Assembly (NCBI RefSeq): GCF_002798015.1
Contig: NZ_PGTZ01000006.1
Span: forward strand, 248,001 to 312,000
DNA length: 64,000 nucleotides
DNA from: Luteimicrobium subarcticum
GTDB taxonomy: Bacteria > Actinomycetota > Actinomycetes > Actinomycetales > Cellulomonadaceae
Reading direction: 5' to 3'
Positions within the stretch are counted from its first letter, which is position 1. The number at the start of each line of letters is the position of its first letter. Below, in pieces: positions 47,705 to 52,216 of this stretch. The notes under the pieces are model-generated. The model was not told where the DNA came from. It searched no databases and saw only the letters and a list, made by a program, of their open reading frames with translations. A program made the translations under genes and the position numbers.

Positions 47705-48991
47705 GTGACCCTGAACGCTCCCATCCCGCCTGCCGTGCCGACTGCGACGACCGGTCCACCACGGGCCCGGTTCGAGCTCGACGCCGTGCGCGCGCTCGGC
47801 GCCCTGGCCGTCGTGATGTACCACGGGTACCAGCACGACGGGCAGCCCCTGTGGGGCACCGCCTGGCACTCCCTCATCTCGAACACCGTGTTCGTCGAGA
47901 TCTTCTTCGTGGTCTCGGGCTTCCTGCTGTGGCTTCCGCTCGTGCGCACGGCCCGGCTCGAACGCTCCCCGACACCCGGCGCCACGATGCTGCGGCGTCG
48001 CGCGACGAGCCTGCTGCCCCTGTACGTCGGGGTGATCGTCATCGTGTGGCTGATCAACAACCCCCAGTGGCCCGGCTGGTGGCAAGACCTCGCGCTCCAC
48101 CTCACGATGACGAACGTCTACTCCGACCAGTTCATCTTCTGGACCGACGGCCCGGCGTGGAGCCTCGCGGTCGAGTTCCACTTCTACGTCGCGGTCGCGA
48201 TCCTCACGTTCTGGATCAACGCGACGGTGCGGCGCGACGCCGCGGAGGCCGTGCGGGAGGGCGCCGGCACGGCCACCGGGAGGCGGCGGGCACGCAGCGC
48301 TCGCCGGCTCGTCGTGCTCGTCCCGGTCGTGCTGCTCGCCGTGTCGGTCGCCTACCGGCTGTGGGCGGCGCTCGTGCAGGACTACCCGTCGACGTCGTAC
48401 GCGGTGTGGTTCAACCCGCTCGCGCAGGGCCACGACTTCGCGCTCGGCATGCTGCTCGCCGTGCTCGTCGGGTGGCGGGTGCGGCTCGGCCGCTGGGCGC
48501 GCGCCGGGGTGATCGTGGTCGCGGCCGGCGGCCTCGCCGCGCTCGTCCAGCTCGACACGACCGCGTCGCCGCAGACGGTCAAGCTCGCGCAGGCGGGCGT
48601 GAGCCTGTGCGCCGCCGCGCTCATCGGCACGATCGTCCTGAGCTCCGACCCGGCGCCCGCGTGGCTCACCTGGCGCCCGCTCGTCTGGGTCGGCGGGGTC
48701 AGCTACGGCCTCTACCTGTTCCACGAGCCCGTGATGCGGGCGCTCGGCGCGCTGCACGTCCTGCCCGAGCAGCCCACGCGATGGTGGCTCGTCGGCGCGT
48801 TCGTCGTCGCCGCGACCCTGCCGCTCGCGTGGCTCGCGAACGTCCTCGTGCGGACGCGGCTGTCGCCCCGCATCGACGCCGCGATCGTCCGGCACCGCGA
48901 ACGGGTCGCCGCCGCCCGGTCGGACGGCCAGGCGCCGCCCGCGATCGTCGCCGCGCCGTCGTACGAGACGCACTTCGGCTGGACGGAGTAG
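47705..48991 (+). CDS. Membrane acyltransferase 3 family protein
   Basis: A 428-residue protein with about ten helices. The AT3 opening RFELDAVRALGALAVVMYHG with its His and FVVSGFLLWLPLVR are clear. It likely transfers acetyl or other acyl groups to an envelope glycan. GTG 47705 has GAGGAG eight bases upstream; the 233-bp gap on its left holds TTACGGT near 47555 as a possible -10 box and no gene. Confidence 0.88.
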   Translation: MTLNAPIPPAVPTATTGPPRARFELDAVRALGALAVVMYHGYQHDGQPLWGTAWHSLISNTVFVEIFFVVSGFLLWLPLVRTARLERSPTPGATMLRRRATSLLPLYVGVIVIVWLINNPQWPGWWQDLALHLTMTNVYSDQFIFWTDGPAWSLAVEFHFYVAVAILTFWINATVRRDAAEAVREGAGTATGRRRARSARRLVVLVPVVLLAVSVAYRLWAALVQDYPSTSYAVWFNPLAQGHDFALGMLLAVLVGWRVRLGRWARAGVIVVAAGGLAALVQLDTTASPQTVKLAQAGVSLCAAALIGTIVLSSDPAPAWLTWRPLVWVGGVSYGLYLFHEPVMRALGALHVLPEQPTRWWLVGAFVVAATLPLAWLANVLVRTRLSPRIDAAIVRHRERVAAARSDGQAPPAIVAAPSYETHFGWTE

Positions 48992-49042
48992 GCGTGCCGG
49001 CGGCTCGGCCGGCCCGGAGCGCGCTGCCCTAGTGTGAGGGAC

Positions 49043-50152
49043 ATGCCCGACGCCGCCGCGCCCGTCCGCCTGCCCGTCCCCCTCGTCCTCGCCTCCGCCT
49101 CGCCGGCGCGCCTCGCGACCCTGCGTGCCGCGGGCGTCGAGCCGCGGGTCGTGGTCTCCGACGTCGACGAGGACGCCGTGCTCGACGCGGCCCGCCGCAG
49201 CCGGACGGTGACGCCCGCCGACGCCGTCCTCCTGCTCGCCCGCGCCAAGGCCGAGGACGTGGCGTCCCGCGTCGCGGCGGCGCGCGAGACCGACGGCGGC
49301 GCGCTCGTCCTCGGGTGCGACTCGATGCTCGAGCTCGACGGCGAGGTGCTCGGCAAGCCCGGCACCCCCGACGTCGCGCGGGAGCGCTGGCACGCGATGC
49401 GCGGCCGGTCCGCCGTCCTGCACACCGGGCACTGGCTCGTCGACGCCCGGACGGGGGCGCTCGCCGCGTCCGGGACGACCGCCTCGACGACCGTGACGTT
49501 CGCCGACGTCGCCGACGACGAGATCGACGCCTACGTCGCGACCGGGGAGCCTCTCGTCGTCGCGGGCGCGTTCACCATCGACGGGCTCGGCGGCGCGTTC
49601 GTCGAGCGGGTGGACGGCGACCACCACAACGTCGTCGGGGTGAGCCTCCCGCTGGTGCGCCGCCTGCTCGCCGGGCGCGGGGTGGCGTGGCCGAGCCTGT
49701 GGTCGACCCCGACCCCGACCGCGCCCGCGACCGCGACCGCGTCCGACGTCGAGGAGCGCAGCATGACGAGCCGGCACGTGAGCACGGTCGTCGGTCGTCC
49801 CGCCGCCGAGGTCTACGCCTTCGCGTCGGACCTCGACAACCTGCCGCGGTGGGCTGCCGGGCTCGCGACCGGGCTGCTGCGCCGCGACGGCCGCACCCTC
49901 GTCCTCGACTCCGCGCTCGGCGAGATCACCGTGACGTTCGCCGACGTCAACGAGCACGGCGTGCTCGACCACGACGTCACCCTGCCGTCGGGCGAGGTGG
50001 TCCAGAACCCGTTCCGCGTGCTGGCGCACCCGGACGGCACCGAGCTCGTGTTCACGGTCCGTCAGCTCGACCTCACCGACGACGAGCTCGACCGCGACGC
50101 CGCCGCCGTGGCCGCGGACCTCGCGACCCTCAAAGGCCTGCTCGAAGCCTGA
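49043..50152 (+). CDS. maf: Maf nucleotide pyrophosphatase fused to SRPBCC domain
   Basis: One 369-residue frame holds two domains. Residues 1-215 are Maf: LASASPARLATLRAAGV, LGCDSMLELDGEVLGKP and AGAFTIDGLGGAFVERV. A Thr/Ala/Pro linker (TPTPTAPATATAS) leads to residues 241-369, an SRPBCC fold (VGRPAAEVYAFASDLDNLPR). At the junction GAGGAG (49751-49756) is followed by ATG 49763 in the same frame, so the second domain may also be made separately. ATG 49043 is seven bases after TAGTGT. Confidence 0.87.
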   Translation: MPDAAAPVRLPVPLVLASASPARLATLRAAGVEPRVVVSDVDEDAVLDAARRSRTVTPADAVLLLARAKAEDVASRVAAARETDGGALVLGCDSMLELDGEVLGKPGTPDVARERWHAMRGRSAVLHTGHWLVDARTGALAASGTTASTTVTFADVADDEIDAYVATGEPLVVAGAFTIDGLGGAFVERVDGDHHNVVGVSLPLVRRLLAGRGVAWPSLWSTPTPTAPATATASDVEERSMTSRHVSTVVGRPAAEVYAFASDLDNLPRWAAGLATGLLRRDGRTLVLDSALGEITVTFADVNEHGVLDHDVTLPSGEVVQNPFRVLAHPDGTELVFTVRQLDLTDDELDRDAAAVAADLATLKGLLEA

Positions 50153-50188
50153 CCCGGTGTCCGTCCGGCTCCCGGGACCGAGCGTGCT

Positions 50189-50207
50189 GTTGTCGCCGTC
50201 GGACAAC
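50189..50207. repeat. Inverted repeat in the promoter gap of the biotin carboxylase gene
   Basis: GTTGTC-N7-GACAAC in the 200-bp gap between the Maf fusion and the carboxylase. It could be an operator or a small hairpin at the end of the upstream transcript. Nothing else in the gap is a gene. Confidence 0.4.
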
Positions 50208-50353
50208 TGGGTGGTCCTCTGGGGCGCCTCTGGTCCCGCGTCGATGGTGGATCCCTACAACCGCCTCCGACAGCACTTGGCCACTCCCCCAATCTTGGTG
50301 GGACGACCCGGACGGAGGACCGGTCGGGCGAGGGCGGCGCGTTACGGTAAGCC

Positions 50354-52216
50354 GTGCCCACCGAGCAGACCCCCTCCAGCGTCGCGCCGTCCGACGCTCC
50401 CGCCGCCGCCCGGACCGCCGACGTCGTCGTCCGGCCGCTGCGGAAGGTGCTGATCGCGAACCGTGGCGAGATCGCCGTCCGCGTCGTGCGTGCGTGCCGT
50501 GACGCCGGCATCGCGTCGGTCGCCGTGTACGCGGACCAGGACCGCGAGGCCCTGCACGTGCGGCTCGCCGACGAGGCGTTCGCGCTCGGCGGCGCCCGTG
50601 CGCAGGAGACGTACCTCGACCAGGCGAAGCTGCTCGACGTCGCGCGCCGCGCGGGTGCCGACTCCGTCCACCCCGGCTACGGCTTCCTGTCGGAGAACGC
50701 CGAGTTCGCGGCCGCGGTGCTCGACGCGGGTCTCGTGTGGATCGGCCCCGGGCCGGACGCGATCTCCTCGCTCGGCGACAAGGTGAGCGCCCGCCACATC
50801 GCCGCCCGCGCCGGCGCACCGCTCGTCCCCGGCACGCCCGACCCGGTGCAGGACGCCTCGGAGGTCCAGGCCTTCGCTGCCGAGCACGGGCTGCCCATCG
50901 CCATCAAGGCGGCGTTCGGCGGCGGTGGCCGTGGCCTCAAGGTCGCCCGCGTGGCCGAGGAGATCGAAGAGCTGTACGACTCTGCCGTCCGTGAGGCCGT
51001 GGCGGCGTTCGGGCGCGGCGAGTGCTTCGTCGAGCGGTACCTCGACCGCCCGCGCCACGTCGAGACCCAGTGCCTCGCCGACGCGTACGGCACCGTCGTC
51101 GTCGTCTCGACCCGTGACTGCTCGCTGCAGCGCCGCCACCAGAAGCTCGTCGAGGAGGCGCCCGCGCCGTTCCTCACGCCCGCGCAGGAGGCCGAGCTCG
51201 ACCGGGCCTCGAAGGCGATCCTCTCCGAAGCCGGGTACGTCGGGGCGGGCACGTGCGAGTTCCTCGTCGGCGCCGACGGCACCCTGTCGTTCCTCGAGGT
51301 GAACACGCGCCTCCAGGTCGAGCACCCGGTCTCCGAGGAGGTCACGGGCATCGACCTCGTGCGCGAGCAGCTGCGCATCGCCGCGGGCGAACCCCTCGGG
51401 TACACCGAGACGGTCACGCGCGGTCACTCGATCGAGTTCCGCCTCAACGGCGAGGACCCGGCCGCGAACTTCCTGCCCGCCCCCGGCACGGTCACGAAGC
51501 TGCGCTTCCCGTCCGGCCCGGGCGTGCGCGTCGACTCCGGGATCGTCGAGGGCGACACCGTCTCCGGCGCGTTCGACTCGATGATCGCCAAGCTCGTCGT
51601 CACGGGCGCGGACCGCAAGCAGGCGGTCGAGCGAGCGCGACGCGCGCTCGCCGAGCTCGAGATCGAGGGCATCCCGACCGTCGTGCCGTTCCACCGCGCC
51701 GTGCTCGAGGCCGAGGAGTTCGTGCCGTCCGGCGACGAGCCGTTCACGGTGCACACCCGCTGGATCGAGACCGGGTTCGCCGACCGCCTCGCTCAGCTCG
51801 CCCCCGCCAAGGCACCCACCGACGTCGAGTCCGCCGAGAACGAGCCGCTCACCGAGCGCGTCGTCGTCGAGGTCGGTGGCAAGCGGCTCGAGGTCGTCAT
51901 CCCCGCCGGGCTCGGCATGGTGGGCTCGCGCGCCCGCACCGCCAACGCCGCGCGGCGCCCGACGCGTCGAGGCGGCGCGAAGGCCGGACCGGCCGCGAGC
52001 GGCACGTCGCTCACGTCGCCCATGCAGGGCACGATCGTCAAGGTCGCCGTCGAGGACGGCGCGACCGTCGAGGCGGGCGACCTCGTCGTCGTGCTCGAGG
52101 CCATGAAGATGGAGCAGCCGCTCGTCGCGCACCGCGCCGGCACGGTCCGCTCGCTCGCCGCGGGCATCGGCGCGTCCGTGAGCTCCGGCACGGTCATCTG
52201 CGAGATCGTCGACTGA
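50354..52216 (+). CDS. Acyl-CoA carboxylase alpha subunit (biotin carboxylase + biotin carrier)
   Basis: A 620-residue AccA3-type subunit. Residues ~35-480 are biotin carboxylase: [30 protein letters not shown], the ATP loop [13 protein letters not shown] and [15 protein letters not shown]. The C-terminal carrier domain has EAMKM with the biotinylated Lys585. BirA at 42 kb would modify it. GTG 50354 follows TACGGT (50343-50348). Confidence 0.95.

Follow-up and report, generated by a model that had tools for sequence, protein, structure and literature searches.

How two genes that stand apart in related bacteria came to share one reading frame, and whether the second of them still also gives a protein of its own, are the questions raised by positions 49043–50152 (forward strand) of the window, that is, the whole stretch of 64,000 nucleotides of Luteimicrobium subarcticum DNA analysed here. 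These positions form a single open frame of 369 codons, running from ATG 49043 to TGA 50150–50152 with no internal stop, and its product of 369 amino acids (38.5 kDa) would consist of a Maf domain, a linker, and an SRPBCC domain. At the junction of the domains, a Shine–Dalgarno (SD)-like motif, GAGGAG (49751–49756, forward strand), is followed by CGCAGC (49757–49762) and by an in-frame ATG (49763–49765). A preliminary description of the locus had reported that Maf runs without a stop into SRPBCC, with which both the frame and the Pfam domains agree, and that GAGGAG, six bases, and an in-frame ATG at 49763 mark the junction, which proved right to the base. The likeliest account of the locus is a gene fusion that is specific to this lineage and possibly neutral. 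Taken as a whole, the explanation that a free SRPBCC gene moved behind maf and that loss of the maf stop then led to a read-through fusion appears probable to us, and it is based on the frame, the domains, the alignment of the SRPBCC start, the conserved flanks, and the stop codons of the relatives.

In terms of family membership, the N-terminal part can be assigned to Maf by profile, with a full-length model scoring above its curated cut-off. In Pfam, PF02545 (Maf) covered residues 13–210 (49079–49672, forward strand) with an E value of 1.3e-49 and 168.9 bits (cut-off 27), from position 1 to position 185 of the 187 positions of the model, and the NCBIfam model TIGR00172 was matched at 148.7 bits (cut-off 117.15). 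This was the only Maf family match in the whole genome. The Maf signature S-R-E-K-D-K, as defined in passages of PMC3899018, was complete within the domain (S20, R23, E43, K69, D93, and K105, placed via an alignment to 1ex2), and the six residues were invariant across 23 aligned sequences. The domain therefore resembles other actinobacterial Maf proteins (PF02545, TIGR00172) in its completeness, in its 61–72% identity to 22 relatives, in its full set of signature residues, and in its position upstream of a biotin carboxylase-like gene (named by reading its sequence, not by family search), but differs from them in that the terminal stop of the relatives is missing and a second domain is attached.

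The C-terminal part can be assigned to the SRPBCC/Polyketide_cyc2 family on the strength of a profile match and a predicted helix-grip fold. PF10604 (Polyketide_cyc2, SRPBCC) matched residues 245–339 of the whole protein with an E value of 3.4e-6 and 27.8 bits against a cut-off of 27.4, and when only the part from ATG 49763 was searched (49763–50152, forward strand; 129 amino acids, 13.8 kDa), the E value was 5.7e-7 and the score 30.4 bits against the same cut-off. The structure predicted for the SRPBCC part alone, from 26 sequences, had a mean pLDDT of 91.1, and Foldseek matched it to PDB 2qpv (Atu1531) with an E value of 3.1e-15 and a TM-score of 0.93 over the query. The SRPBCC structure was taken from this separate model and not from the model of the whole protein, which had low confidence in the SRPBCC half and whose alignment contained no SRPBCC homologues. 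A joint alignment of Maf and SRPBCC homologues was set aside because, judging from its consensus, SRPBCC rows had been placed over the Maf half. The two sequences shared 50% identity over 131 alignment columns; Atu1531, whose entry title calls it "uncharacterized", is free-standing, whereas the SRPBCC domain here is joined to Maf.

The genes of relatives showed the two halves only apart from each other. At every one of the 62 Maf loci from other genomes, the Maf frame closed with its own stop codon, 21–48 residues (gaps not counted) beyond the position of residue 199, and no SRPBCC match was found near these loci within approximately 1.5 kb on each side. Likewise, there was no Maf match in the DNA around the 58 SRPBCC loci of other genomes. 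Both genes occurred together in three of 123 loci, all three of which were the window itself (the total comprises 65 Maf and 61 SRPBCC loci, with the three window loci counted in both sets), and no locus from another genome, among the 62 Maf and 58 SRPBCC loci, had maf and an SRPBCC gene side by side. The two other genomes of the genus that were compared encode a Maf protein with a stop codon and carry their SRPBCC homologues elsewhere (54% and 50% identity). When the fused protein was compared with 39 relatives, no second open frame spanning both domains was found, and against 221 genomes of the family and 394 genomes of the class, no second two-domain frame appeared among the matches listed, from which weak or split cases could escape. 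A conserved fusion, shared in its architecture by two or more species, was not seen in these comparisons. An ancient or widespread fusion is likewise unsupported, there being no other case among the genomes and loci searched (among the matches listed for the sets of 221 and 394). Among the matches listed in a search of the literature on Maf with SRPBCC, there was no mention of "SRPBCC".

The DNA downstream of the frame indicates where the SRPBCC gene came to lie. In 47 of the 62 Maf loci, the next gene downstream, no more than 500 bases away, was the biotin carboxylase-like gene, and the gap between maf and this gene could be measured in 48 cases, the window included. An inverted repeat, TTGT[CG]-N7-[GC]ACAA, was present in 19 of these 48 gaps, and an element of 33–36 nt, TGG...TCCTACAA...TTGG, in 28; the mean was 0.0 in 50 shuffled gap sets for the former and also 0.0 in the shuffles for the latter, where the shuffles preserved nothing but base composition, several of the genomes are closely related, and the pattern of the longer element was fitted after the sequences had been viewed. 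In the window, the inverted repeat (GTTGTC-N7-GACAAC; 50189–50207, forward strand), of a kind found after the maf stop in many relatives, follows the SRPBCC stop, and the conserved element (TGGTGGATCCCTACAAC...TTGG; 50245–50280, forward strand) lies upstream of the biotin carboxylase-like gene. Because both elements are 3′ of the SRPBCC stop here and directly after maf in the relatives that carry them, the SRPBCC gene separates the end of maf from these elements. The longer element may act as a regulatory site for the carboxylase gene.

The junction ATG also appears to carry a trace of the former independence of the second domain. The four closest SRPBCC homologues (G005, 67%; G014, 65%; G076, 63%; and G451, 62%) all begin at the codon that aligns with ATG 49763. 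Among the 58 SRPBCC loci of other genomes, the start codon was aligned exactly to ATG 49763 in 12, and a candidate start lay between ten codons before and four codons after it in 49, with none in the remaining nine; ahead of the candidate start, an SD match of at least 5 was found in nine of the 58 loci and the TANNNT leaderless pattern in ten. Judging from these alignments, ATG 49763 coincides beyond chance with the point at which the closest free-standing homologues start, and since those homologues begin at the same codon, ATG 49763 is most simply taken as the original start codon of the SRPBCC gene. In the phylogenetic tree, the SRPBCC gene grouped with homologues from its own family and order (12 rows in all), whereas the homologue of the congener G001 fell outside this group. 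With support values of 93/77, the grouping is not firm enough to establish a transfer, and both a transfer and an old paralogue would be compatible with the tree.

These observations suggest the following course of events. A free-standing SRPBCC gene with its own start codon would have arrived in the short intergenic space separating maf from the biotin carboxylase-like gene, and the maf frame would have been in phase with the newcomer by chance. The maf stop would then have been lost in or near a low-complexity stretch of hexamer repeats. The linker between the domains is composed of Thr, Pro, and Ala, its region (49709–49762, forward strand) had very low pLDDT in the full-length model, and most of it is a hexanucleotide tandem repeat (7.0 copies of CGACCG with 88% matches; 49704–49745, forward strand), the copy number of which never shifts the frame because the unit is a hexamer. 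In one congener, the Maf protein ends in a Thr-rich tail, WAEPTETTVTTETR, followed by TGA, which makes it plausible that an ancestral tail of this kind existed and that its stop was subsequently lost. Between the domains, no match to a promoter or terminator consensus was found, and a search of Rfam gave no match in 48800–50700 at E values up to 1.

Transcription would probably start at a leaderless maf promoter. The sequence TAGTGT (49030–49035, forward strand), a −10-like TANNNT sequence separated from ATG 49043 by 7 nt, is the predicted signal of a leaderless start of maf. TANNNT was located 5–8 nt ahead of the candidate start in 48 of the 62 Maf loci of other genomes, a count with no shuffled control, and maf is thus probably leaderless in the group. 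Signals so near the start are taken in parts of PMC3160421 as the mark of leaderless genes, a common type in Actinobacteria, and a −10 motif also appears in an excerpt of PMC3898074. The main product of such a transcript would probably be the Maf–linker–SRPBCC protein of 369 amino acids, with two independently folded domains and a flexible linker, and the old SRPBCC start (AGGAG, 6 nt, and ATG 49763) may still give some free domain of 129 amino acids. The effect on function would be near-neutral, with a predicted Maf nucleotide pyrophosphatase and a predicted SRPBCC binder of small ligands tethered to each other.

The preliminary description had left two options for the junction, an ancestral second gene that is now read through, and one gene that gives a long and a short product. 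The former is well supported by the starts of the homologues, the stops in all 62 Maf loci, and the flanking elements, whereas the latter may be called possible and nothing beyond that; from the sequence features described below, we put the chance that a short SRPBCC product is made at about one half. It is a larger claim that the two products exist by design, with the long Maf–SRPBCC protein and the short SRPBCC protein from ATG 49763 made in a regulated ratio in the manner of AerR. We consider this unlikely, even if the AGGAG is well spaced, the ATG is at the start codon of the closest homologues, and no further match to the SRPBCC part was found in the same genome at E ≤ 0.001, so that a need for the free domain could be met only here. 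AerR is a precedent, for which an excerpt of PMC6199135 describes long and short forms, 41 residues apart and with a CTG start, that were shown by blots and mutants. The likeness lies in an in-frame internal start with a ribosome-binding site upstream; in contrast to AerR, as far as that excerpt describes it, the short form here would lose a whole domain, its start is ATG rather than CTG, and the two forms are predicted from the sequence.

The features of the start region itself weaken the proposal of two designed products. The SD-like motif, identified by reading the sequence, was compared with background counts: an SD consensus match of at least 5 at a workable spacing preceded eight of 86 internal ATGs in the second half of those ORFs of the window that were treated as genes and nine of 113 in their last 70%, or seven of 85 and eight of 112 (i.e., 7–8%) when the motif of the junction was left out, in a background whose ORFs were picked by codon-position GC, and some possibly wrongly, and in which two hits share one motif. 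The motif was therefore rejected as stand-alone evidence because it is within the background of internal ATGs. Furthermore, the region of 71 nt around ATG 49763 folds at −33.5 kcal/mol, which is more stable than the surroundings of approximately 90% of the window's 722 ATGs, both strands counted, and a stable local RNA fold speaks against efficient internal initiation; the fold of 65 nt at this ATG had a z score of −0.96, which is not unusual for its composition. There was no TANNNT leaderless promoter directly ahead of ATG 49763, and the arrangement was not found in other genomes among the matches listed. Quite unlikely in turn is an extended form of the fusion explanation, according to which a very young fusion would yield both Maf–SRPBCC and free SRPBCC from one leaderless mRNA, and the tethered domain would alter the activity or the location of Maf.

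An error in the sequence or its assembly would leave two separate genes, with Maf ending at TGA 49764–49766 (forward strand), the SRPBCC gene translationally coupled to it, and the frames joined by a one-base error in the repeat. This TGA overlaps ATG 49763 as ATGA and is the earliest stop of the +1 frame past the Maf domain, though any ATGA holds such a stop; the join also contains a G+C-rich repeat of seven units and is known from one genome. Against this stands the composition of the codons. In the fused frame, which is that of Maf, the third positions were 100% G+C in the linker, alongside 99% in the Maf part and 95% in the SRPBCC part, whereas the linker read in the +1 frame had 67% and a tail of Arg-Pro repeats, a comparison that involves few independent codons owing to the repeat. 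An error of this kind seems improbable to us, although a one-base error in the repeat is the chief technical doubt about the join, and we retain the read-through fusion as the preferred explanation.

Read-through into an SRPBCC gene was also found with another partner. An open upstream frame of at least 80 codons was present at 23 other SRPBCC loci, of which 22 were rejected as fusions because their codon-position G+C, judged by eye, was not coding-like. At the remaining locus (Kineococcus xinjiangensis L053:3729-5393), the upstream frame was coding-like, and Pfam identified a LacI-type regulator (PF00356, PF13377) in one open frame with the SRPBCC gene. As at the locus in the window, the upstream gene there continues, with the frame kept, into a gene of this SRPBCC family at its start ATG, but its upstream partner is unrelated (LacI versus Maf), and that join also comes from one assembly. 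The two unrelated upstream partners suggest that read-through into the SRPBCC gene is opportunistic and not a Maf-specific partnership, and that stop-poor, G+C-rich DNA makes it easier. It is very unlikely that the protein is a selected bifunctional enzyme whose SRPBCC domain senses a ligand or delivers it to Maf: although the alignments show conserved residues kept in both the Maf and the SRPBCC domain, and Maf is known fused to other domains (e.g., ASMTL, in passages of PMC3899018), the join occurs in a single genome, the unrelated LacI regulator also runs into this SRPBCC family, and the surroundings of the other 58 SRPBCC loci contain no Maf match. In ASMTL, as described in those passages, a Maf domain is fused to a methyltransferase domain, and thus, as here, is covalently joined to an unrelated domain behind it; however, ASMTL has that other partner and is found in many eukaryotic Maf proteins, whereas the present fusion is from a single bacterial genome.

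If the SRPBCC gene did arrive behind maf and was then read through, the locus would be a snapshot of two bacterial genes becoming one, in which the free state persists in the relatives, the start codon is still recognisable, and the linker is for the most part a short tandem repeat. Should the internal start still be used, it would be an intermediate in which the fusion keeps the free protein for the cell. The biology of the Maf and SRPBCC parts is otherwise ordinary.

In the Maf part, the alignment to 1ex2 also showed that the R-T-Q residues of the YhdE subfamily are absent and are replaced by A22, S94, and D180 (codons 49106–49108, 49322–49324, and 49580–49582). According to passages of PMC3899018, YhdE-type Maf proteins have R-T-Q at these three positions and YceF-type proteins have W-Q-E. 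A22, S94, and D180 were invariant in all 23 aligned Maf sequences, and the A-S-D Maf proteins possibly form a third substrate class.
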